Shown here: positions 5,737 to 15,444 of the stretch, one piece after another
How positions within the stretch are numbered: the stretch's first letter is position 1
Layout: the number at the start of each line of letters is the position of its first letter
Origin: Arthrobacter sp. SLBN-112
Lineage (GTDB): Bacteria; Actinomycetota; Actinomycetes; Actinomycetales; Micrococcaceae
Length of the DNA stretch: 64,000 nucleotides
NCBI RefSeq assembly: GCF_006715225.1
Contig: NZ_VFMU01000001.1
Coordinates: 1,116,001 to 1,180,000 of the forward strand
Direction of reading: 5' to 3'
Made by a program: the position numbers and the translations under genes
Notes under the pieces: generated by a model
Database searches by the model: none
What the model was told of the DNA's origin: nothing
The model's input: only the letters and a program-made list of their open reading frames with translations

Positions 5737-7128
5737 ATGCTGAACCTGAACCGCGACGTCGTGGTCGTTGGAGCCGGGCCGTCCGGACTCACCGCCGCCC
5801 GTGAACTGAACAAAGCCGGCCTCACCGTCGCCGTGCTGGAGGCCCGCGACCGCGTGGGCGGCCGCACCTGGACCGATACCGTGGACGGCGCCATGCTCGA
5901 GATCGGCGGCCAGTGGGTCTCCCCGGACCAGACCGCCCTCCTGGACCTGCTCCAGGAGCTGAACCTCGAAACCTACCCGCGCTACCGCGACGGTGAGTCC
6001 ATCTACATCGGCGCGGACGGCATACCGGTGCGCTACACCGGCGAGACCTTCCCCGTGGACCCGGACACCGCCGTCGAAATGGACCGCCTGGTGGCCCTGC
6101 TGGACGGCCTGGCCGCGGAAATCGGCCCGACCGAACCGTGGGCCCATCCCAAGGCGCGGGAACTGGACACCATTTCCTTCCACCATTGGCTGCGGCAGAA
6201 CTCGGCCAACGAGGAAGCGTGCAGGAACATCGGGCTCTTCATCGCCGGCGGCATGCTCACCAAACCCGCCCATGCTTTCTCCGCCCTGCAGGCGGTCCTG
6301 ATGGCAGCTTCCGCAGGTTCGTTCACCCACCTGACGGACGAGGATTATATTCTGGACCGCCGTGTGGTGGGCGGGATGCAGCAGGTCTCGCTGCTGCAGG
6401 CGCAGGAGCTGGGCGACGACGTGATCCTTAACTCCCCGGTGCGCACCATCAAGTGGGAACCTGATTCGGAGGGCGGCCACCGCGTCTCCGTTATTTCGGA
6501 CCGCGCCATGGTCAATGCCCGGTTTGTGATCATGGCTGTTCCGCCCAACCTCTACTCCCGGGTCTCCTTCAACCCGCCGCTGCCGCGCCGCCAGCACCAG
6601 ATGCACCAGCACCAGTCCCTGGGCCTGGTGATCAAGGTGCACGCCGTCTACAGCACGCCGTTCTGGCGGGACAAGGGGCTCTCCGGCACCTGCTTCGGAG
6701 CAGACGCCCTGGTCCAGGAGGTCTACGACAACACCAACCACGGTGACCCACGCGGAACCCTGGTGGGCTTCGTGTCGGACGAGAAGGCGGACGCCGTCTT
6801 CGAGCTCAGCGCCGAAGAGCGCAAAAAGGCCATCCTGGAATCGATCGCCGGCTACCTCGGCGACGAGGCCCTGGCCGCGGAGGTGTACTACGAGTCCGAT
6901 TGGGGCTCGGAGGAATGGACCCGCGGAGCCTACGCTTCCAGCTACGATTTGGGCGGACTGCACCGCTACGGCAAGGACCAGCACACGCCCGTGGGCCCCA
7001 TCTACTGGTCATCCTCAGACCTTGCCGCCGAGGGCTACCAGCACGTGGACGGCGCCATCCGGATGGGCCGCATCACCGCTGCCCGCATCGTCGAAGTGGC
7101 GAAGGTGCCGGTTACCGCGGGGTGGTAA
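5737..7128 (+). CDS. Flavin monoamine oxidase, putrescine-oxidase-like (463 aa)
   Basis: This FAD-dependent amine oxidase has the dinucleotide fold at residues 8-45, with VVVGAGPSGLTAA and EARDRVGGRTWT (the GxGxxG and GGR motifs), and a C-terminal FAD contact near GAIRMGRITAARI. It oxidises primary amines to aldehydes with release of ammonia and hydrogen peroxide. The length and GGQWVSPDQ segment fit bacterial putrescine/tyramine oxidases. The start is at MLNLNRDV with a GAGAGG ribosome-binding site. An earlier ATG lies inside the operator and is rejected. Shared control with agmatine deiminase supports putrescine as substrate; tyramine or another amine cannot be excluded by eye. Confidence 0.85.
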   Translation: MLNLNRDVVVVGAGPSGLTAARELNKAGLTVAVLEARDRVGGRTWTDTVDGAMLEIGGQWVSPDQTALLDLLQELNLETYPRYRDGESIYIGADGIPVRYTGETFPVDPDTAVEMDRLVALLDGLAAEIGPTEPWAHPKARELDTISFHHWLRQNSANEEACRNIGLFIAGGMLTKPAHAFSALQAVLMAASAGSFTHLTDEDYILDRRVVGGMQQVSLLQAQELGDDVILNSPVRTIKWEPDSEGGHRVSVISDRAMVNARFVIMAVPPNLYSRVSFNPPLPRRQHQMHQHQSLGLVIKVHAVYSTPFWRDKGLSGTCFGADALVQEVYDNTNHGDPRGTLVGFVSDEKADAVFELSAEERKKAILESIAGYLGDEALAAEVYYESDWGSEEWTRGAYASSYDLGGLHRYGKDQHTPVGPIYWSSSDLAAEGYQHVDGAIRMGRITAARIVEVAKVPVTAGW

Positions 7129-7144
7129 ATAAGCATGCTTACTA
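7127..7144. promoter_or_regulatory. Putative stress-regulon palindrome, site A
   Basis: The core TAAGC-AT-GCTTA (7130-7141) is a perfect 12-bp palindrome, and the right half extends to GCTTACTA. It lies 50 nt upstream of the PPOX gene and matches the sites around 12.9, 13.0 and 15.4 kb. The MarR regulator at 13090-13635 is the candidate binder. Confidence 0.55.
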
Positions 7145-7194
7145 ATAGGCTGGCGGCGGGGAGCGTCCCCGACTTTCGACGAACGAGGTGAGGC

Positions 7195-7677
7195 ATGACT
7201 GACGCCCAGGGCATCAGCAAGGTTACTGACATCATCAACGATTCCAAGATCGGGATGGTCACCACCATCAACGAAGAAGGCGCCCTCGTCAGCCGGCCGC
7301 TGGCCGTCCAGGAGGTTAAGGACGACGGCGACATGTGGTTCTTCACGGGCCTTGGCACGTCCCAGGTTGCGCATGTCCGGGCTGATCCGCGCGTTAACGT
7401 CGCCTTTGGCAAGAACACCGAATGGGTGTCCGTGGCCGGAACCGCCGAGGTGGTCACGGACCGGGCCAAGATCCATGAACTGTGGAACCAGGCGGTTGAA
7501 GCCTGGTTCCCGGACGGCCCGGATACTCCCGAGGTGTGCCTGTTGCGCATCGATTCGGACTCTGCCGAGTACTGGACCAGCCCGGGCGGCACGGCCGCCA
7601 CGGTTCTGCAGTGGGTGAAGGCAAAGGTCACCAACAGCCGGATGAGCGTTGGCGAAAGCGGCACCGTGGAGTTGTAG
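7195..7677 (+). CDS. Pyridoxamine 5'-phosphate oxidase-family (general stress protein 26-like) protein (160 aa)
   Basis: This flavin-binding split-barrel protein contains the family stretches IGMVTTINEEGALVSRPLAV, MWFFTG and VNVAFG, and ends with VCLLRIDSDSAEYWTSPGG. Proteins of this type bind FMN or F420 and are often stress-induced; most have no proven substrate. A GAGGTGAGG ribosome-binding site precedes the ATG. A palindrome shared with other stress genes of this window lies 50 nt upstream. It is followed by a terminator shared with the convergent neighbour. Confidence 0.85.
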   Translation: MTDAQGISKVTDIINDSKIGMVTTINEEGALVSRPLAVQEVKDDGDMWFFTGLGTSQVAHVRADPRVNVAFGKNTEWVSVAGTAEVVTDRAKIHELWNQAVEAWFPDGPDTPEVCLLRIDSDSAEYWTSPGGTAATVLQWVKAKVTNSRMSVGESGTVEL

Positions 7678-7692
7678 GGCCGGATATGGAAC

Positions 7693-7725
7693 GGGGCGGG
7701 GCGGCTAAGGCTGCTCCGCCCCTTT
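7693..7725. terminator. Terminator between convergent genes
   Basis: A 10-bp GC-rich stem (GGGGCGGGGC at 7693-7702 with GCTCCGCCCC at 7713-7722, one G-T pair) is followed by TTT. It lies just after the PPOX stop and overlaps the end of the opposing gene. Confidence 0.7.
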
Positions 7726-8313
7726 CAGTGCCGCGAGCACTGCCGGCAGCAGCACGTCATTGCGCCCCCACACCGGATCCAGGATTTCCACGTACCAGGA
7801 GTCTGCAAGCAGGAGGGCCAGGGCATCGTTGGTTTCATCTGCCCAGTCCCGGATTTGATCCTCCTCCACGGGATTCTCGCTGGAGCCCAGCACCGTGGTG
7901 ATCTCAGGCCCGGCGAGCGTCACGGGAATGGCAGCGTTGCTTGCTTCGCCCGGTGCGTGGGCAACGGTCACCAGTTCCGTGCGGGTGGACAGCGCCAGCA
8001 GGCTGCCTGCAGTGCCGGCGCTGCAGAATCCCGTTACGTACTGCCGTTGTGCAGCACCGCCGGTCCGGATGCCCGGCTGAGATTCCCTGGTAAACAGCCC
8101 GTTCCGGTTCAGTTCGGCCAGGGCTGCGGCGATCGGCGTGGTCTCGTCGTCGAAGCCGGCGGCAAAATGGCCCGGCTGGTACGAACTGCCGCCTTCCAGC
8201 CACCGGGCCGTCAGTTCGCCGGCGGCCTCCAGGGTGGTGGCCTGGCGCCAGACTCCGCGGTCCTCCAGCAGCCGGCCGTACTGATCGTGGACAGGAACTT
8301 CTTCAGGCTTCAT
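7705..8313 (-). CDS. Hypothetical protein (202 aa)
   Basis: This acidic soluble protein has no signal peptide or membrane segment. Recognisable stretches are a helical N-terminus (TLEAAGELTARWLEG), NRNGLFTRESQPG near residue 75, a conserved-looking YVTGFCSAGTAGSL, and a C-terminal DWADETNDALALLLADSWYVEILDPVWGR with dense Asp/Glu. The layout recalls an actinobacterial family annotated as DUF6919, but I am not certain of that name. No function is assigned. It stands alone between the PPOX gene (convergent) and an unrelated membrane protein gene. Confidence 0.7.
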   Translation of the reverse strand: MKPEEVPVHDQYGRLLEDRGVWRQATTLEAAGELTARWLEGGSSYQPGHFAAGFDDETTPIAAALAELNRNGLFTRESQPGIRTGGAAQRQYVTGFCSAGTAGSLLALSTRTELVTVAHAPGEASNAAIPVTLAGPEITTVLGSSENPVEEDQIRDWADETNDALALLLADSWYVEILDPVWGRNDVLLPAVLAALKGAEQP

Positions 8314-8373
8314 CTTCGGATGCTATCGCCGGGCCTCCCTGCCGATGCAACATTCGCGACACAGCACTTAACG

Positions 8374-9000
8374 TCAGCCCGCCTGTTCAGCCGGCAGCCC
8401 GGCGGGAATCCCCGCCGCCCGTTCCGCTGCAGCAAGCGATGCTGCCAGGCTTCCGACGGCGTCCGGGTAACCCTTGTGCGTGGCAGTCCGCAGCTGGTCC
8501 GCTGTCCGCATCGCCTTGATGAGGGCGGAGGTTTCCGGCAGCCGGACGTCGGTCAGTTCCGGATGGTCGATGCTGCACGCCGGGTCCAGTTCGTAGCGCC
8601 GCCACCGGCGCATGAGTTCGTCGTGCCGGAGCCTGGCGGCCTGATGGGCAGAAAGCCGCTGCCGCTCTTCCCGTCGCGCGTTGCGCCAAGCCAGGAACCG
8701 TAGGCTGCCGCGGTAGGCGGCGATGCCTGACGCAGCAGCCGCCCCTGCCAGGACCAGTCCCGCCCACGGCGATACCAGGGCGGGGATCAATAATGCGGGA
8801 AGGGCCACGCAGGAACCAAGGAAGAGATCCCAGAACAGCTGGTCCCCACCTTCCGGTGCGCTGCCTGTGGAAGCCAGGGCCCGGCGTCGTACAACAAAAA
8901 CGGTGGCGGCCACGCTGGCCACCAGCACGGGGCCGCACAGCAGGACCGCCCACGCACCCTGAAGCAGACCGTGCATCAAGGACTCCACCACGACTGACAT
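8374..9000 (-). CDS. Hypothetical membrane protein (208 aa)
   Basis: Three hydrophobic segments are visible. One at about residues 12-36 is followed by RRR. Two adjacent ones at about 53-92 are rich in Ala/Gly/Leu. A basic, Arg-rich cytoplasmic helix (WRNARREERQRLSAHQ) and a soluble C-terminal region follow. I do not recognise a family. The start MSVVVESLMHG follows a GGAGGTG ribosome-binding site. An unusual 17-bp inverted repeat lies just upstream, between this gene and the divergent VOC gene. Confidence 0.65.
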   Translation of the reverse strand: MSVVVESLMHGLLQGAWAVLLCGPVLVASVAATVFVVRRRALASTGSAPEGGDQLFWDLFLGSCVALPALLIPALVSPWAGLVLAGAAAASGIAAYRGSLRFLAWRNARREERQRLSAHQAARLRHDELMRRWRRYELDPACSIDHPELTDVRLPETSALIKAMRTADQLRTATHKGYPDAVGSLAASLAAAERAAGIPAGLPAEQAG

Positions 9001-9015
9001 CCTGCACCTCCAGCA

Positions 9016-9069
9016 TCCAATGGAAGGACCAGACCCCGCCGGCAAACCCGGGCTGGTCCTTCCATTGGA
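9016..9069. repeat. Long perfect inverted repeat with 20-nt loop
   Basis: The 17-bp arm at 9016-9032 (core CCAATGGAAGGACCAG) is exactly repeated in inverse at 9053-9069. It lies 16 nt upstream of one start and 86 nt upstream of the other, between divergent genes, so it cannot be an ordinary terminator of either. It may be a regulator site pair, a cruciform, or a small transposon relic. Confidence 0.75.
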
Positions 9070-9154
9070 CCGTCTTCCGGGCAGAGCGTCAATGGCGGCC
9101 AAAAGGGGGAAGCGGGGTATGCCACGGACCTGCGGTGGGCGGTAGCGTGAAGGC

Positions 9155-9538
9155 ATGCGACTCAAGATGTGCAGCATCCACGTCCAGGACCCCGCCGCGG
9201 CCCACGCCTTCTACACGGGCACGCTGGGCTTTGACACGCTCATGGCCATGCCGGAGTACAACCTCTACATCATCAAGGATCCGGGAGCGAACGACAGCAG
9301 CTCAGCAGGCCTTCTCCTTGAACCCAGCGACAATCCGATCGGGGCGGACTACATGAACGCTGTTCGCGAGGCGGGGCTTCCCGCGATCGTCTTCGGGGTT
9401 CCCGATGTGCAGGCGGAGTACGAGCGGCTCGTGGCCGCAGGAGTCAGTTTCAAAACCCCGCCCACCACGGATCAGTTCGGGACCAGTGCCGTGTTTGACG
9501 ACGGCTGCGGCAACTACATCCAGATCCACCAGGACTGA
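9155..9538 (+). CDS. VOC-family (glyoxalase/bleomycin-resistance fold) protein (127 aa)
   Basis: This is a single-domain vicinal-oxygen-chelate protein with two beta-alpha-beta-beta-beta modules. It opens with LKMCSIHVQDPAAAHAFYTGTLGFDT, where His9 is a likely metal ligand, and ends in FDDGCGNYIQIHQD, where the late Glu/Gln-x-His motif supplies the second ligand set. Family members isomerise, cleave or bind small electrophiles or antibiotics. The substrate here cannot be told. A GTGAAGG ribosome-binding site precedes the ATG. Confidence 0.87.
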   Translation: MRLKMCSIHVQDPAAAHAFYTGTLGFDTLMAMPEYNLYIIKDPGANDSSSAGLLLEPSDNPIGADYMNAVREAGLPAIVFGVPDVQAEYERLVAAGVSFKTPPTTDQFGTSAVFDDGCGNYIQIHQD

Positions 9539-9541
9539 CGG

Positions 9542-9946
9542 CTATTTGGCCTGTGCCCGGTCCTTGTTGGCCTGCTTCTTCGCGGCCTCTTCCTTGACCC
9601 GCTGTGCCTCAGCGCGGACAGCCGCGTGCGTGGCTCGTTCGGTGACCAGCCACTGTGGCGGAGCCTGCAGCAGCGCGGTGATTTCCGCAGTCGTGAGCGC
9701 TTCCTCCACTCCGCCGCGGGCCAGGCCGCTGATGGACACGTTCAGCTTCTGAGCCACCACGGGGCGTGGGTGCGGGCCGTTGCGGCGGAGCTCCGCGAGC
9801 CATTCCGGCGGGTTGGCCTGAAGTTCGGCGAACTCCTCGCGGCTGATGGTTGAATCCTGGAACTCCTGCGGCGTGGCCGGGAGATAGATGCCAAGTTTCT
9901 TGGCAACGGTGGCCGGCTTCATGGACTGGGAGTTTGCAGAGGTCAT
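9542..9946 (-). CDS. DUF5997-family protein (134 aa)
   Basis: This soluble protein begins KPATVAKKLGIYLPATPQEFQ and contains REEFAELQANPPEWLAELRRNGPHPRPVVAQKLNVSISGLARGG in consecutive segments. The C-terminal half forms a basic helical tail (RVKEEAAKKQANKDRAQAK). It matches an actinobacterial family I know as DUF5997, function unknown. It is divergently arranged, 37 nt from an effector-only LysR-type protein. I recall the two being neighbours in other actinobacteria, so they may work as a pair. Confidence 0.75.
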   Translation of the reverse strand: MTSANSQSMKPATVAKKLGIYLPATPQEFQDSTISREEFAELQANPPEWLAELRRNGPHPRPVVAQKLNVSISGLARGGVEEALTTAEITALLQAPPQWLVTERATHAAVRAEAQRVKEEAAKKQANKDRAQAK

Positions 9947-9983
9947 GCTTCAAGGGTATCCGGGCGGCGGGTACTGTGAAGAC

Positions 9984-10730
9984 GTGCCCGCCGACAATGC
10001 CCCCACGCCCGACGCCCACGCCGCCCCTGATGAGGCGGCGCCACGGGTGCTTCGCATCGCGTACGTAGCCGGGGTCACCCCGGGCAAATGGATCCGCCGC
10101 TGGGAAGAGCGGATGCCACATATTCCCCTTGAAGCATTTATGGTCGACGACGGCGCGCAGCTTGGGACGCTCCGGGACGGACAGGCGGACATGGCGTTCG
10201 TCCGCCTGCCCATCGACCGGGACGCGCTCAGTGCCATACCCCTTTACGAAGAACAGCCCGTGGTGGTTGCACCGAAGGGTCACGAGATTTCCGTGTTCGA
10301 GGAAGTGGACCTCGCTGACCTGGCGCAGGAATCGTTCCTCGACGTTGCCGCCCTGGGCGGACCGGAGGCGGCGCTCCAGGTGGTTGCCGCCGGCGCCGGC
10401 CTGGTGATCCTGCCCATGTCGGTGGCCCGCCACTTCAACGTCAAAGATACGGTGGCGCGCAGGCTCAGCGGGGCGGACGGAACCGAAATCGCGCTGGCCT
10501 GGCCCACCGAGGCAACGGATGAGGTGCTGGAGGAATTCATCGGCATCGTTCGTGGCCGCACCGCCCAAAGTTCACGCCAGCCATCCGCGCAGCCTGAGAA
10601 GGTGAAGAAGGAGCCCAAGCCGGACCGTCGGGGCACCGGTGCCAAGAAGGCCCCCAAGGTGGCCCAGCGTTATGCACCCAACCCGGACAAGGGCCGCGGC
10701 CGGGGCTCACGCAAGAAGGGCAAACGATAG
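9984..10730 (+). CDS. LysR-type substrate-binding domain protein without DNA-binding domain (248 aa)
   Basis: From about residue 24 the protein follows the LysR effector domain: VLRIAYVAGVTPGKWIRRW, GQADMAFVRLPID, IPLYEEQPVVVAPKGH and AALQVVAAGAGLVILPMSVAR. No helix-turn-helix precedes it; the start is a GTG only about 23 residues before the domain. Instead a highly basic disordered tail (KKEPKPDRRGTGAKK through GRGSRKKGKR) occupies the last 50 residues and could bind nucleic acid. It is divergent from the DUF5997 gene. An alternative upstream start would run through the neighbour's promoter and is unlikely. Confidence 0.78.
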   Translation: MPADNAPTPDAHAAPDEAAPRVLRIAYVAGVTPGKWIRRWEERMPHIPLEAFMVDDGAQLGTLRDGQADMAFVRLPIDRDALSAIPLYEEQPVVVAPKGHEISVFEEVDLADLAQESFLDVAALGGPEAALQVVAAGAGLVILPMSVARHFNVKDTVARRLSGADGTEIALAWPTEATDEVLEEFIGIVRGRTAQSSRQPSAQPEKVKKEPKPDRRGTGAKKAPKVAQRYAPNPDKGRGRGSRKKGKR

Positions 10731-10766
10731 CCGGGCTTGCGGGCGGCCACTTTAGGCCCGGCAGCA

Positions 10767-10802
10767 GCAAAGCCGGGTCCGCGGGTGCGGATCCGGCTTT
10801 GC
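10767..10802. terminator. Bidirectional terminator
   Basis: A 16-bp stem with one G-T pair (10767-10782 with 10787-10802, beginning GCAAAGCCGG) closes a GGGT loop. It lies between the convergent genes ending at 10730 and 10828. Confidence 0.8.
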
Positions 10803-10827
10803 CATGGTGCGTGGTTACCCATGCGGT

Positions 10828-11490
10828 TTAGGTGTTTTGGACGTTGTCTTTGGCGTCGGTGGCGCGGTCTTTGACGTCGGCGGCGGCCATTTGGCCTTCG
10901 GCTTTGACGTTTTGGGCGGCGTCGGTGGCGGTGGCCTTGACGTTTTCCATGGCTTCCTGGGCTGGTTCCTTCAGGTCCTGGGCCATGTTCTTGGCGGCGT
11001 CGGTGACCTGGGTGGCCAGGGGCTGGGCTGCGGTTTTGAGCTGGTCCGCGGCTTCGCGTTCCTTCTGGCTTGCCGGGATCAGCGAGGAGACCAGCATGCC
11101 GGCGCCGAACGCGATCAGCCCGGCGGCCAGGGGGTTGCCGGCGGTTTTGGCTTTGACCTGGTCCGGGGCGGCGGAGACGGCCTGGCCGGCGTCGCTGAGT
11201 TTGGCCGAGACGGTATCTTGTGCCTGGTGCAGGCTGTCGCCGGCGGAGTGCATGGCGTTGGTGGTGTGTCCGGCGCCGGTGGAGGTCGTGTCGTGGACCT
11301 TGGTGGTGGCGGTGTCTGCTGCTCCCATGATTTTCTCCTTCACCCCGGTCACGGCGTCTTTTACTTTGTCGGTTTGGCGGTGGACGATGTTGGACGGGGT
11401 GACCTTGTCCGCCACGGCGTCCACGTTGGTGCCCAGCCGTGCCCGGGTGGCTTCTATGTCTGCGCGGATGACGTCAGGGTTTTCGCTCAT
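10828..11490 (-). CDS. DUF3618-domain stress protein (220 aa)
   Basis: The N-terminus MSENPDVIRADIEATRARLGTNVDAVADKVTPSNIV, in consecutive pieces, is the DUF3618 signature. It is followed by a long Ala/Lys/Asp-rich amphipathic region with LEA-like character (repeats of the type KxxAxDAxxNVK). A hydrophobic stretch lies at about residues 123-140 (LAAGLIAFGAGMLVSSLI). It is the last gene of a three-gene operon with 4-nt overlaps, after a holin-type membrane protein and an LEA-like protein. Such proteins are usually membrane-associated and induced by desiccation or osmotic stress (inference). Confidence 0.85.
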   Translation of the reverse strand: MSENPDVIRADIEATRARLGTNVDAVADKVTPSNIVHRQTDKVKDAVTGVKEKIMGAADTATTKVHDTTSTGAGHTTNAMHSAGDSLHQAQDTVSAKLSDAGQAVSAAPDQVKAKTAGNPLAAGLIAFGAGMLVSSLIPASQKEREAADQLKTAAQPLATQVTDAAKNMAQDLKEPAQEAMENVKATATDAAQNVKAEGQMAAADVKDRATDAKDNVQNT

Positions 11491-11921
11491 CGGTTTACCT
11501 CACCTGGTTTTAGGGTTGGGGGAATTTCTGAGAGGGTTTCCCCGGTTTGGGGCAGGCCCTTGATCTGCTTGAGTTCCTTGCGGCCGATGGAGGCCAGGAC
11601 CGCGGCGATGATGGCCCAGACCACGGCGACGATCAGCGCGGACCAGCCCAGGGGCATGATGGCCCCGAGGGCCCACATCAGGGCCAGGGACAGGAAGAGC
11701 AGGACGAAGTGTCCGCCCACGCCGGCGCCGGCGAGCATGCCGGCGCCTTTCCCTGCCCGGGAGGTGGATTGCTTGAGTTCGGCCTTGGCCAGTTCCACTT
11801 CCTGGCGCATCAGGGTGGACAGGTCCCGGGTCACATCCCCCAGCAACTCGCCCAGGGACGCGTTGTCCGCTTTCATATGCGCCTCACTCGGCGGCATCTC
11901 CGGAATCTGGCTACTCATCAC
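11487..11921 (-). CDS. Phage-holin-family (Actino_Holin/DUF1469-type) membrane protein (144 aa)
   Basis: The N-terminal amphipathic helix LGELLGDVTRDLSTLMRQEVELAKAELKQS is the family hallmark. Two membrane segments follow at about residues 55-80 and 86-112. The family name is misleading: these are chromosomal actinobacterial and proteobacterial inner-membrane proteins of unknown role, usually next to DUF3618 proteins, as here. It overlaps both neighbours by 4 nt and so belongs to the same translationally coupled operon. There is no endolysin or phage gene nearby. Confidence 0.87.
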   Translation of the reverse strand: MMSSQIPEMPPSEAHMKADNASLGELLGDVTRDLSTLMRQEVELAKAELKQSTSRAGKGAGMLAGAGVGGHFVLLFLSLALMWALGAIMPLGWSALIVAVVWAIIAAVLASIGRKELKQIKGLPQTGETLSEIPPTLKPGEVNR

Positions 11922-12814
11922 AGACCACCCGTGCCGCGGCGGCCGGTGCCGGCGGTGCCTTCGCTGCCGAACGGCTCGTCGTCGTTGTAGACGCCGTTTT
12001 CGGCCCGGTAGGGGTCGTCATCCAACCGAAGCGGTGTCTCCTCGGCGGTACCCGAGGGCAGGGTGCTGGTGGAAACCGGGGCCCCGCTGCCTATCGTTGG
12101 CTCTGCGAAGAGGTCATCCGTTCCGGCGGCGTACACGGTCTCCGGGTGCAGGGGCGCTACGGGCGGTGACTGCACGGCGCGGTGCTGGCCCAGGCCCTGC
12201 TGGCCTGAAGCCCGGACCTGTCCCTGTGATTCGGGGGCGCCTGCGGTGAGTCCGCGGGTGAGGCGTCCTGCCAGGACGCCGGCGCCGGCGGCGAGGAGCA
12301 GGAACGTTCCGGGCCGGTTGCGGGCAAACCGCTGGACCTCGTTCAGGAGGTCACCCGGCTCCCGGTTCTCCAGCCAGGACGCCATGGAGGACGTGCGATC
12401 GGCTGCCTGCCGGATCAAATCGCTGGCCATGCCCTGCTGGTCCGGTGCGCTGGCCATGCTGTGCAGCTGGCTGGAAATGTTCCGGATGCCCTCGGCAGCC
12501 TTCTGCTGCTGCGTGCCGGCCTGACTGGTCAGGCCCGACTTCGCCTGGTGCAGCAGGTCCTGGGCGTTGGCCTTGGCCTCGTGGGCCACGTTCGCGGCCT
12601 CGCCCTTGGCCGTCTGGGCTACTCCCTGGGCGGCAGATGCAGCTTCACCAGCAACGTTGGAAGCCTCCTCCTTTGCCGCCTGGGTCTTGGAGGTGTCGGC
12701 TGAGGTCCCCGTGTAGGGGGCCTGGCCTGGTGCTACCTCGGTTGCGCCGTATGGATCGACGACTGCCGGGTCGGCAGTGGTGCGCGGTGTCTGGGGCCAT
12801 TGGTTCTCTGTCAT
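11918..12814 (-). CDS. LEA-like/low-complexity membrane-associated stress protein (298 aa)
   Basis: Residues about 45-110 are an Ala/Lys/Glu-rich amphipathic helix with repeated KEEASNVAGEAAS / KGEAANVAHEAKA units, like group-3 LEA proteins. A conserved central part (GDLLNEVQRFARNRPGTFLLLAAGAGVLAGRL) holds one short hydrophobic segment at about residues 165-182. The rest is disordered and acidic. It is the first gene of the operon with the holin-type and DUF3618 proteins, which suggests a joint role at the membrane under stress. GTG, ATG and ATG stand in tandem at the start; the last ATG has the best spacing to AAAGAGAG. A palindrome shared with other stress genes lies 59 nt upstream. Confidence 0.78.
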   Translation of the reverse strand: MTENQWPQTPRTTADPAVVDPYGATEVAPGQAPYTGTSADTSKTQAAKEEASNVAGEAASAAQGVAQTAKGEAANVAHEAKANAQDLLHQAKSGLTSQAGTQQQKAAEGIRNISSQLHSMASAPDQQGMASDLIRQAADRTSSMASWLENREPGDLLNEVQRFARNRPGTFLLLAAGAGVLAGRLTRGLTAGAPESQGQVRASGQQGLGQHRAVQSPPVAPLHPETVYAAGTDDLFAEPTIGSGAPVSTSTLPSGTAEETPLRLDDDPYRAENGVYNDDEPFGSEGTAGTGRRGTGGL

Positions 12815-12872
12815 CATCACTCTCTTTCAGAAAGGGTTAGCTGGCGAACAAGAACCAGCAGTGCTGGCAACT

Positions 12873-12890
12873 TAGTAAGCAAGGTTACTA
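12873..12890. promoter_or_regulatory. Putative stress-regulon palindrome, site B
   Basis: TAGTAAGC-AA-GGTTACTA is an imperfect 18-bp inverted repeat 59 nt upstream of the LEA-like/holin/DUF3618 operon. A further half-site TACTAAGC follows at 12897-12904. Confidence 0.6.
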
Positions 12891-12988
12891 ATTAGATACT
12901 AAGCACACTTCCCATTTCGATTGCAAGGGGTAGTGCCCTGCCGTTTGAAGTCAGGAGTGCCCGATGTGGGGCCGGCGGGGCGGATGGA

Positions 12989-13030
12989 TAGTAAGCCTAC
13001 TTGCGAATAGGTTGCTAAGCATGCTTATTG
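12989..13030. promoter_or_regulatory. Putative stress-regulon palindromes, sites C1 and C2
   Basis: C1 (12989-13006) is TAGTAAGC-CT-ACTTGCGA, with a strong left half. C2 (13013-13030) is TGCTAAGC-AT-GCTTATTG with the perfect core TAAGCATGCTTA. Their centres are 24 bp apart. C2 ends 59 nt before the MarR start, consistent with autoregulation. Confidence 0.6.
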
Positions 13031-13089
13031 TAGGGGTGTAGCGACGCAGGGTGACCAGCACTTCGCCACCTACAGGAAGGCCGCGGCCG

Positions 13090-13635
13090 ATGACCAGCAA
13101 TCTCGATCCGGACGCCCGGAGCAGCTACCGCCTTATCACTTTGGCGGCGCGGCTGATCCAGCGGCGCCAGGACGATGCACTGGCCCCCCTTGGCCTCACC
13201 CGTGCCGCTGTTATTGCACTGGAAGGCCTGATGGGGGGCCCACTGAACCAGGAACAGCTCGCCGACGCGATCAGGGTCCAAAGCCAGACACTGGGCCGGG
13301 TCCTCACGAGGCTTGAAGCCACCGGACTCATCACCAGGATGCGCCACGCTTCGGACCGAAGGCAGCTGAAGGTGGAGCTCACCGATGCCGGCGTTGCCGC
13401 CGTTGAAGCCGCACGGAAGGCCGAGGTCAACGCTTATCCGGATGACCCGGACATTGCATGGAATGTACTCCGCGAGGAGCTGACGAAGTTTGTCCGCGCA
13501 GTACCGCCGGGCCGTGATACCGGCGTTGTCCCGTTTGCCCCGCCCGAACACCGGGCCGGGCACGGGCACGCGCACCGGCCGCAGGCCGGGCGGGCAGGCG
13601 GCGCGCGGAGCTGGGACCAGCCCCGCCAGAACTGA
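13090..13635 (+). CDS. MarR-family transcriptional regulator (181 aa)
   Basis: Residues about 10-125 form the MarR winged helix: QRRQDDALAPLGLTRAAVIALEGL, LNQEQLADAIRVQSQTLGRVLTRLEATGLI (recognition helix) and RMRHASDRRQLKVELTDAG (wing with the conserved Asp-x-Arg). The C-terminal 50 residues are a disordered, His/Pro/Arg-rich tail that is unusual for the family. The ATG follows AGGAAGG; a GTG 39 nt earlier is less likely. Two copies of the TAAGC-NN-GCTTA palindrome stand in its promoter. Related sites precede nearby stress genes, so it is the candidate repressor of the island. Confidence 0.87.
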   Translation: MTSNLDPDARSSYRLITLAARLIQRRQDDALAPLGLTRAAVIALEGLMGGPLNQEQLADAIRVQSQTLGRVLTRLEATGLITRMRHASDRRQLKVELTDAGVAAVEAARKAEVNAYPDDPDIAWNVLREELTKFVRAVPPGRDTGVVPFAPPEHRAGHGHAHRPQAGRAGGARSWDQPRQN

Positions 13636-13682
13636 AGTCCTCGCCGGCACTGACAGCCTTGCCGGAACCGTCAGCAGGAAAG

Positions 13683-13720
13683 AGCAGTGGCCGGACCTTT
13701 CGGACCGGCCACTGCTTTTA
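13683..13720. terminator. Terminator between convergent genes
   Basis: AGCAGTGGCCGG (13683-13694) pairs with CCGGCCACTGCT (13705-13716) around a 10-nt loop and is followed by TTTTA. It ends MarR and probably also the opposing small gene. Confidence 0.85.
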
Positions 13721-13721
13721 C

Positions 13722-14009
13722 TTAACCCTTGTCTTCGTGCTCATCCTCCAGCAGTCCCCGTTGCGCCAGGTCGGCTGCGTCGGCTGCCTCCGGGGGCAAG
13801 GGGTCTGTCGCCGGGGGAACGTCGCCCGGAGCATAATCAGCCAGGCCCGCCGCAACCCTCTCCTGTTCGACGGCCCGCTGGTAATCGTCGTCGTCAACGT
13901 CTTCCGGCATCTTGCCGTGGCCGCGGCGGGTGGGGTTCGGAAGCGCATCCTCCTCCGGGACTATCACGGTGTCGAGGACGTCATCGCGGTTTTCATCTGC
14001 AGTGCTCAT
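13722..14009 (-). CDS. Small acidic hypothetical protein (95 aa)
   Basis: This very acidic, probably disordered protein (MSTADENRDDVLDTVIVPEED, then GKMPEDVDDDDYQRAVEQERVAAGLADYAPGDVPP in pieces) has no membrane or signal segment. The ATG at MSTADE follows GTGGAAGG; a GTG two codons earlier is possible. It lies downstream of the release-factor-like gene and may share its transcript. No family is recognised. Confidence 0.65.
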   Translation of the reverse strand: MSTADENRDDVLDTVIVPEEDALPNPTRRGHGKMPEDVDDDDYQRAVEQERVAAGLADYAPGDVPPATDPLPPEAADAADLAQRGLLEDEHEDKG

Positions 14010-14059
14010 GGTCACCTTCCACTCGTTGGGTTCCTCCAGGAACGGGGCCGTATGGCTAC

Positions 14060-15193
14060 TTACGACGGGACGTCCGGTCCCGAAGACCAGCGCAGCAGTG
14101 CCGCCACATCGACGCCCTCCGGCAGGACTGGCCCGGGAACCAGGAGGACACGGGCGTCAGTGAGGGCCGCTGCCCGCAGCAGGGCCGCAGGGGCCGGAAC
14201 TTCGCCAAGGATTCCCGCCGCCAGGGCTTCCTCCTTGGCGGTGGCAATCCACGGTTCGGCATCCAGTGCCAGCATGGTCCGCTGCGACAAGGCGGCGTCA
14301 TTGAGGATCAGGACATCCACCTGTGCCTGCTGGAGTGCGTGGACCACAGCTCCAACGCCGTGCGCGGCCTCTGGATTCGCCTGGCCCTCCTGGACCGCCA
14401 GCCTGTCCATGACCGACTGCTGCTCCTCAGCCCAGACCTCGGCCACCCGCTGGTTGACCTGGTCTTCCAGGTTGCTGCTGTCCGCCCCGGCGGTGTGGGT
14501 GTGGGAATCGACGATTGACACCAGTGCCTGGGCGGCTTTGGAAAGTTGCTCCTGCACCAGCCCGCGGGCATGGATATCACCGGCGAGAACAATCAGCCGC
14601 GCACCGCTGTTCTCTGCCAGCCGGTCGATTTCGCCTGCCACTTCATCTGCATTCCGACGCCAGACGTCCTCGGTGTGGTGCTGGAAGCGCAGGTGCGACC
14701 AGCCGCCGCCCTGGAACTTCTTTATATGCTCGGACTCGCCCTCCACCTCCTGGACGCTCGTGGGGGCACCGGCCCCGGCGCGGTACAGCCGGATTTCCCC
14801 GTGCTCGCGGCTGACCTCGGCCACGATGTAGGCAAACTCCTCGGGCTGGTGCTTCAGCAGCGGGAGCAGGTCCGGGACGGGGTCCACTGCCAGCCGCTCC
14901 GGGAGGACGAGTTCGCCGGGGAGCACCTCATTGAGTTCGGCTTTTCCGCCATGGACCAGGACGAACCTGGACACGGGGGAGGGCACTCCGGTTGCAGGTT
15001 TCAGGGACTGTTCCATGGCGTCGACGTCAGCCGGCGCTGCACCCTGTGCTTCAAGCTGGGCCCGGGTGTTTCCGGGGCGGACATCGCCCGCTTCCAGGCT
15101 GTCCACCGTTCCGGTTCCGGCGTCCACGTAGGCGGTGCACCAGGGGCCGGGGAGGCGGTACAGGTCTGCGTATTTTTGCAGGCCGGTGGTCAC
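14060..15193 (-). CDS. Balon/Rv2629-like bacterial archaeo-eukaryotic release factor (baeRF2-type) protein (377 aa)
   Basis: The protein has the three-part layout of bacterial eRF1/Pelota homologues. The central domain is eRF1-like with SREHGEIRLYRAG, then GGGWSHLRFQHHTEDVWRRNADEVA and LIVLAGDIHARGLVQEQL. The C-terminal domain (about residues 270-377) resembles the L7Ae-like fold (GVGAVVHALQQAQVDVLIL). Mycobacterial relatives (Rv2629, Msmeg1130) belong to the Balon ribosome-hibernation group, which occupies the ribosomal A site during stress. The GTG start overlaps the upstream small gene by 4 nt. Family assignment is good; a hibernation role is inferred from the family and the stress neighbourhood. 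Confidence 0.75.
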   Translation of the reverse strand: MTTGLQKYADLYRLPGPWCTAYVDAGTGTVDSLEAGDVRPGNTRAQLEAQGAAPADVDAMEQSLKPATGVPSPVSRFVLVHGGKAELNEVLPGELVLPERLAVDPVPDLLPLLKHQPEEFAYIVAEVSREHGEIRLYRAGAGAPTSVQEVEGESEHIKKFQGGGWSHLRFQHHTEDVWRRNADEVAGEIDRLAENSGARLIVLAGDIHARGLVQEQLSKAAQALVSIVDSHTHTAGADSSNLEDQVNQRVAEVWAEEQQSVMDRLAVQEGQANPEAAHGVGAVVHALQQAQVDVLILNDAALSQRTMLALDAEPWIATAKEEALAAGILGEVPAPAALLRAAALTDARVLLVPGPVLPEGVDVAALLRWSSGPDVPS

Positions 15194-15402
15194 TGCTCCC
15201 CCTCCTCGTCGTCGAGAGGGTCTGGTGCTGCCAGATTCAAGGCTTCCTGCACCTCGGCGGGATCCGTGTCATCGGGGAAGGGCTCTGTTTCGCGCCATTC
15301 CTCCGCATGGGGCGGTTGGTTTCCGTGCACCACCCCCTGCGTTTCATGCTTCATCTGGTCATCCAGATTCTGGCCATGGGTGGTGTTGCCGCGTTCTGCC
15401 AT
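15190..15402 (-). CDS. Small acidic hypothetical protein (70 aa)
   Basis: This hydrophilic protein is rich in Glu, Asp and Pro (QPPHAEEWRETEPFPDDTDPAEVQEAL), with no membrane segment. It has a clear AAGGAG ribosome-binding site and overlaps the Balon-like gene by 4 nt (GTGA), so the two are translationally coupled. A palindromic site shared with other stress genes lies 24 nt upstream of its start. No family is recognised. Confidence 0.7.
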   Translation of the reverse strand: MAERGNTTHGQNLDDQMKHETQGVVHGNQPPHAEEWRETEPFPDDTDPAEVQEALNLAAPDPLDDEEGEQ

Positions 15403-15425
15403 GACGATCTCCTTCGCGCGTGAAT

Positions 15426-15444
15426 TAGTATCACAGGCTTACTA
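15426..15444. promoter_or_regulatory. Putative stress-regulon palindrome, site D (degenerate)
   Basis: The perfect half-site GCTTACTA (15437-15444) is paired with a partial half TAGTA (15426-15430); the spacing is 1 bp longer than at the other sites. It is located 24 nt upstream of the small gene coupled to the Balon-like factor. Confidence 0.4.

Follow-up and report, generated by a model that had tools for sequence, protein, structure and literature searches.

A palindrome shared by MarR-type regulator genes and general-stress genes as the putative operator of a chromosome-wide regulon in Arthrobacter sp. SLBN-112

The DNA analyzed here (hereafter the window) is a stretch of 64,000 nucleotides from Arthrobacter sp. 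SLBN-112, with a GC content of 66% and a coding fraction of 89%. Within it, a palindrome recurs in front of a PPOX-class gene, an operon that begins with a LEA-like gene, and the gene for MarR-A, a regulator of the MarR type. Sites in the window were scored by comparing 16 letters with TAGTAAGC-NN-GCTTACTA; the palindromes are listed without strand, and those at 7127 and 12873 come from the pattern match and the scan with a position weight matrix (PWM).

7127..7144, no strand: palindrome, 14/16, 50 bp 5' of the PPOX start codon
7195..7677, + strand: PPOX-class protein (Pyrid_ox_like), a target (PF16242, 4e-52)
10828..11490, - strand: DUF3618 protein, third gene of the LEA-like operon (PF12277)
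11487..11921, - strand: Holin-X-like membrane protein, second gene of the operon (PF07332)
11918..12817, - strand: LEA-like protein, first gene of the operon (label taken from a preliminary description of this DNA; no Pfam hit)
12873..12890, no strand: palindrome, 15/16, on the LEA-operon side, 55 bp 5' of the operon start
12897..12914, no strand: palindrome, 12/16, second LEA-side site, 24 bp from 12873 and absent from the preliminary description
12989..13006, no strand: palindrome, 13/16, on the MarR side; its right half contains a -35-like TTGCGA (13001-13006)
13013..13030, no strand: palindrome, 12/16, second MarR-side site at a distance of 24 bp from 12989, with a right half that enters a -10-like TATTGT (13026-13031)
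13090..13635, + strand: MarR-A regulator, the proposed binder (PF01047, 4e-11)

The palindromes in the window are real. At ≤3 mismatches, 3 sites were found, versus 0.04 in shuffled sequence. The control used throughout was the reversed pattern, which has the same composition as the motif, and it gave 0 sites at ≥12/16, where the pattern itself gave 5; the counts were 7 for the pattern versus 3 for the control at ≥11/16, and 25 versus 48 at ≥10/16. Since the control catches up below 12/16, weaker matches are meaningless. The preliminary description had placed related inverted repeats at five positions, four of which hold (with 15, 14, 13, and 12 of 16 letters), whereas the fifth, at 15426, reaches only 7-9/16.

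The same description had taken these sites to mark a local stress island, and had proposed a motif scan of the genome. That scan revealed that the sites are distributed chromosome-wide, and the reading as a local island was given up. Across the genome, a single contig of 4,404,006 bp (4.40 Mb), there are 29 sites at ≤3 mismatches, versus 3 for the reversed pattern, and a degenerate form derived from these 29 sites, WTAGTMAGYNNRCTKACTAW, has 46 matches, versus 8 for the control. According to gene calls made in this analysis, 27/29 sites are intergenic and 27/29 lie ≤150 bp upstream of a start codon. Among the union of 50 sites, the corresponding numbers are 45 and 43. In a set of 43 sites, the median distance to the start codon is 63 bp. 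The consensus is a palindrome of ~20 bp, WTAGTMAGY-NN-RCTKACTAW, often placed between divergent genes. Four of the five sites called intragenic have a PWM score of ≤18.2, and the fifth (4148234) scores 28.9. In addition, two genes of 913 amino acids each (C1:393459-396200 and C1:3652483-3655224), presumably encoding pyruvate dehydrogenase E1-like proteins, have the same first 70 residues and the same weak intragenic motif match.

To characterize the targets, 40 genes behind sites, plus 9 window proteins, were scanned with Pfam at 1e-3. The families found include CsbD, universal stress protein (Usp), DJ-1/PfpI, ChaB, CBS-domain, transglycosylase-associated (GlsB/YeaQ-like), PRC-barrel/DUF2382, GCS2-type ligase, haem-oxygenase-like, and polyketide-cyclase-like proteins, as well as a ferritin-fold protein that we take to be Dps. 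Further targets are two zinc alcohol dehydrogenases, a short-chain dehydrogenase, a trypsin-like/PDZ protease, GlgE, glycogen phosphorylase (GlgP), an FMN reductase, an MFS transporter, and DUF4383, DUF6328, and DUF6480 proteins. Several of these classes are general-stress genes in other bacteria. The PPOX gene of the window and two LEA/holin/DUF3618 operons are targets as well. Besides the window copy (10828-12817), the operon has a second copy at C1:1569768-1571847; the holin and DUF3618 DNA of the two copies is nearly identical, while the LEA-like genes differ in their middle and the flanks differ too. A tandem palindrome, 23-24 bp apart, is kept at both copies.

The winged-helix domain of MarR-A scores 43 bits on PF01047 (cut-off 24.6) and 39.9 bits on PF12802 (cut-off 27). 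Its orthologs were collected from 28 named Arthrobacter and Pseudarthrobacter contigs encoding MarR-A. A MarR-proximal palindrome, 58-73 bp before the start codon, is kept in 28/28 of them at ≥11/16 and in 27/28 at ≥12/16, including 5 loci that do not have the LEA-side 15/16 site. Neighboring sites are spaced by 24 bp in 92/94 pairs, counted in two sets of MarR-A loci that overlap partly in species (46/47 each). Upstream of MarR-A, the hexamers TTGCNN and TAT(T/G)GT stand 19 bp apart in 28/28 orthologs, also at L067, L069, and L080, whose upstream palindrome is missing its left half. Read as -35 and -10 elements covered by the regulator, these hexamers point to autorepression. A palindromic operator thus appears to lie over the gene's own promoter in 28/28 orthologs. 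No cysteine occurs in any of the 27 MarR-A rows, which were taken from 30 loci, and this makes a thiol switch of the OhrR kind unlikely for MarR-A. Its C-terminal tail is rich in histidine (HRAGHGHAHRP).

We then compared site number with the presence of MarR-A in 150 genomes of the same genus, i.e., Arthrobacter in the wide sense, as inferred from the contigs that encode MarR-A. At ≤2 mismatches, these genomes hold 992 sites, versus 60 for the reversed pattern. When grouped by their best match to MarR-A, the 47 genomes with a strong match have 11.06 sites on average, the 31 with an intermediate match 6.65, and the 72 without MarR-A 3.69 (strong versus without, Mann-Whitney 4e-19, a value that is not a true probability because the genomes are related). 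By regulator class, the means are 11.06 for MarR-A (47 genomes), 6.53 for A-like (30), 5.33 for MarR-D (15), 4.78 for MarR-E (9), and 2.98 for the 48 genomes with no A, D, or E; the one genome with both an A-like gene and E has 10 sites. Control means across these classes are 0-0.62, with 0.27 in the 48 genomes. Given the promoter site in 28/28 orthologs and a site number that follows MarR-A presence, MarR-A is the best candidate binder of the palindrome in this genome, as the preliminary description had supposed of the MarR protein; the data from the rest of the genus, given below, do not make it the sole one.

The palindrome is also found in front of other MarR genes. MarR-D, present in 15/150 genomes, has an own-promoter site at ≥12/16 in 14 of them and at 11/16 in the last; for MarR-E the figure is 10/10 (10/150 genomes), and for MarR-F it is 2/2 (G244 and G258). 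The tandem pair is also found in the A-like branch (L229, L230, and L235). MarR class C follows a PRC-barrel gene in an operon preceded by sites of 12-13/16 (L108 and L115). No site at ≥12/16 occurs in the fetched loci of E2 (0/10). Among the 78 genomes with A or A-like, D co-occurs in 0 and E in 1. In a tree that came with a long-branch warning, A, D, E, C, and F are separated with strong support, and D arises among B-type rows. The recognition-helix stretch Q(S/A)Q(S/T)xG is common to A, B, C, D, and F, with TAQSLG in E. MarR-E rows contain 1 or 2 cysteines. In many genera, MarR-B and a peroxiredoxin-like gene are divergently arranged (L117 and L093-L116), and by eye the intergenic region holds half-sites or weak repeats only, as in L116.

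Collectively, we consider it likely that these genes form a general-stress regulon that MarR proteins control through a shared operator, with MarR-A as the regulator here and D, E, or F as replacements elsewhere. The operator, its distribution over the genome, its targets, and its presence in the promoters of MarR-A, -D, -E, and -F can be read from the sequence. From these we infer binding, repression rather than activation, an inducer, and a substitution of MarR paralogs for one another. In the proposed mechanism, the palindrome would be the operator of a small family of MarR-type winged-helix regulators. A MarR-A dimer would bind it, repress the promoter of its own gene by occupying -35 and -10, and hold down ~40 promoters across the chromosome, many of them of general-stress genes, until a signal, conceivably desiccation or dormancy as in the preliminary description, releases MarR-A and the whole set is switched on together. 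The paralogs D, E, and F, whose own promoters contain this operator too, probably substitute in relatives without MarR-A. More tentatively, with a chance that we put somewhat below even, the regulon may be defined by its operator and not by one regulator, such that at least four MarR lineages (A, D, E, and F) fill the same seat in different species.

Several observations weigh against this reading. In five genomes without MarR-A, 10/15 of the site loci that were read precede homologs of the same targets, as judged from printed N-termini; the retained targets are the LEA-like operon, PPOX, PfpI, the MAGNL(I/V)ARS gene, the polyketide-cyclase-like gene, DUF6480, and one alanine-rich protein. Since sites are kept before the same genes in such genomes, MarR-A is not the sole binder in the genus and is not needed for operator upkeep. 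The 48/150 genomes in which no A, D, or E was found still average 2.98 sites, and where sites were read in 7 of them (all sites in five genomes, 2/6 in G258, and 2/3 in G334), MarR-F was present in 2 and no MarR in 5. Likewise, G187, which lies outside the 150 genomes, has 4 sites and no MarR adjoining them. A distant MarR-A homolog (53%) in G113 is accompanied by one diverged site and no regulon. The comparison by regulator class is uncorrected for kinship, and its search pattern was derived from a MarR-A genome. Furthermore, hardly any lean of -10-like hexamers toward the gene is seen at single sites (at offsets 7, 13, and 16, the 16 sites with one-sided genes have 4, 6, and 4 hexamers, versus 1, 5, and 2 when mirrored), so that the case for repression comes mostly from the MarR promoter, and -10 overlap at single sites was dropped as a proof of it. 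Many targets fall into general-stress classes, but 16/40 scanned targets have no Pfam family at 1e-3, one more has a hit only below the cut-off, and some with a family, such as the MFS transporter, offer no argument for stress. Finally, the recognition helix of MarR-B is nearly that of MarR-A, so MarR-B could bind too. Separately, we considered and rejected the idea that recognition helix and operator covary in G113: a search there with TAGTAACCNNGGTTACTA at ≤3 mismatches found 1 site, versus 20 for the reversed control.

A rival reading is that another regulator binds everywhere, either MarR-B, which nearly every genome of the genus appears to have, or a protein that went unseen, with A, D, E, and F as mere regulon members. 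We regard this as rather unlikely, even though sites are still present where none of A, D, or E was found, MarR-B has the recognition-helix stretch QAQTMG in common with MarR-A, the MarR-D query is matched in 149/150 genomes (mostly at B-like scores), and some other genera with MarR-B have 1-5 sites. MarR-B loci lack a site at ≥12/16, both across the whole fetched locus (0/15) and in further, mostly B-type, loci (0/22), and the MarR-B locus of this genome has none even at ≥11/16. MarR-B also stands beside the peroxiredoxin gene in genomes with zero sites (e.g., G069 and G007), and within the genus it is MarR-A that site number follows. A variant compatible with the other steps of the MarR mechanism is that the regulator activates. 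The median distance of 63 bp before the start codon would suit activation if the promoter lies downstream, but both conserved hexamers of the MarR promoter lie inside the palindromes or at their edge, and we hold this variant to be unlikely.

It is very improbable that the palindrome is promoter architecture, i.e., a sigma-factor element of the SigB/F type, and not an operator. CsbD, Dps, Usp-like proteins, PPOX, and short-chain dehydrogenase are typical of SigB regulons in Firmicutes and of SigB/F regulons in Actinobacteria, and the targets here resemble those regulons; a SigB/F-like sigma gene (C1:1574003-1574950) also stands beside the second LEA operon. Nevertheless, the element is a two-fold symmetric palindrome of 18-20 bp, often between divergent genes, and it is present in the promoters of MarR-A, D, E, and F and not at MarR-B. 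No sigma-B type promoter (GTTT, GGGTA) with a fixed position relative to the palindrome was found at 43 sites. The gene set is like SigB/F regulons in its target classes, but is marked by a palindromic operator and not by a sigma promoter. The sigma gene itself scores 217 bits, versus a family cut-off of 234, and lies ~2 kb from the second LEA operon; its presence led us to discard the idea that a MarR protein replaces a missing SigB. Chance matches in AT-rich promoters, which the preliminary description had named as a reason to abandon the motif, have practically no weight left. Promoters do tend to be AT-rich in DNA of such GC content, but the reversed pattern gives 3 sites versus 29 in the genome and 60 versus 992 over the 150 genomes.

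With the aim of following the motif beyond the genus, we searched 197 genomes of the family at ≤2 mismatches and found that 48 have a site (11/12 in the genus and 37/185 in other genera). The other family genera account for 87 sites, versus 36 for the reversed pattern (table count), mostly from a few genera with 1-5 sites per genome, and some of these genomes also carry MarR-B; both facts sit less easily with a regulon tied to A, D, E, and F. At ≤1 mismatch, a search of 248 genomes from the order turned up 9 with a site, of which 8 belong to the genus and 1 to a different genus of the same family; the reversed pattern occurs in 2.

The MarR regulon proposed here can be set beside several known systems. 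SlyA, a MarR protein with many targets, has the winged helix and a palindromic operator in common with it, and the closest solved chains (3q5f, 4aih, and 3deu) are SlyA. The half-site TTAG(C/T)AAGC resembles what we take to be the SlyA consensus, TTAGCAAGCTAA. However, MarR-A scores only 35.8 bits against the best SlyA chain and 41.4 bits on NF002926, below the equivalog cut-off of 120, and the operator here is 18-20 bp with a 2-bp center. OhrR, a thiol-switch MarR protein, differs by its reactive cysteine, which MarR-A lacks. MalR of Corynebacterium glutamicum, from another group of Actinobacteria, is likewise described as a MarR-type regulator with many targets, a palindromic motif, and a link to stress; that motif is reported to be very AT-rich, and the regulator is tied to cell-envelope remodeling (PMC6536590). 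CrtR is a MarR-type autorepressor of Actinobacteria, studied also from Pseudarthrobacter chlorophenolicus, and the reports give it a 15-bp motif with a central TTAA and a small regulon in C. glutamicum (PMC7432914, PMC5401885). By that description, the palindrome analyzed here differs in having NN between GC and GC at its center, with no central TTAA (PMC7432914).

Arthrobacter-type bacteria endure long drying and starvation without spores. Our literature search found no account of how general-stress genes are coordinated in them. In the open-access literature, as far as its searchable portion extends, nothing describing this motif was found, in agreement with the preliminary description. Published expression data on Arthrobacter drying, in the parts available, could not be mapped onto this regulon (PMC9608346, PMC13011423). 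A defined operator and a named candidate regulator make the coordination of stress genes testable. If the proposal is true, a species may hold on to a given set of stress genes and yet come to switch it on by a different signal, and if paralogs replace one another on a fixed operator, the regulon would offer a clear example from nature of constant targets under a changing sensor.

Two further features of the window lie beyond MarR-A:

14060..15193, - strand: Balon/Rv2629-like ribosome hibernation factor (PF18844; NF052289 below cut-off); regulon membership not supported
15426..15444, no strand: weak inverted repeat upstream of the Balon-like operon, 7/16 (best register 9/16), not a proper site

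The preliminary description had counted the Balon-like operon as a member, which is not supported, as it has no proper site. The repeat at 15426 has half-sites spaced wider than in the proper palindromes and stays below the 9-bit listing cut-off of the PWM scan. In the 11 relatives where the place was found, it is identical in 7, similar in 1, and changed in 3, which says little because the flanking DNA is conserved too. No plasmid record resembling the region 12820-13095 was found. The product of 14060-15193 is of the baeRF type, near the Rv2629 ribosome hibernation factor family, with 182 bits versus a cut-off of 320.

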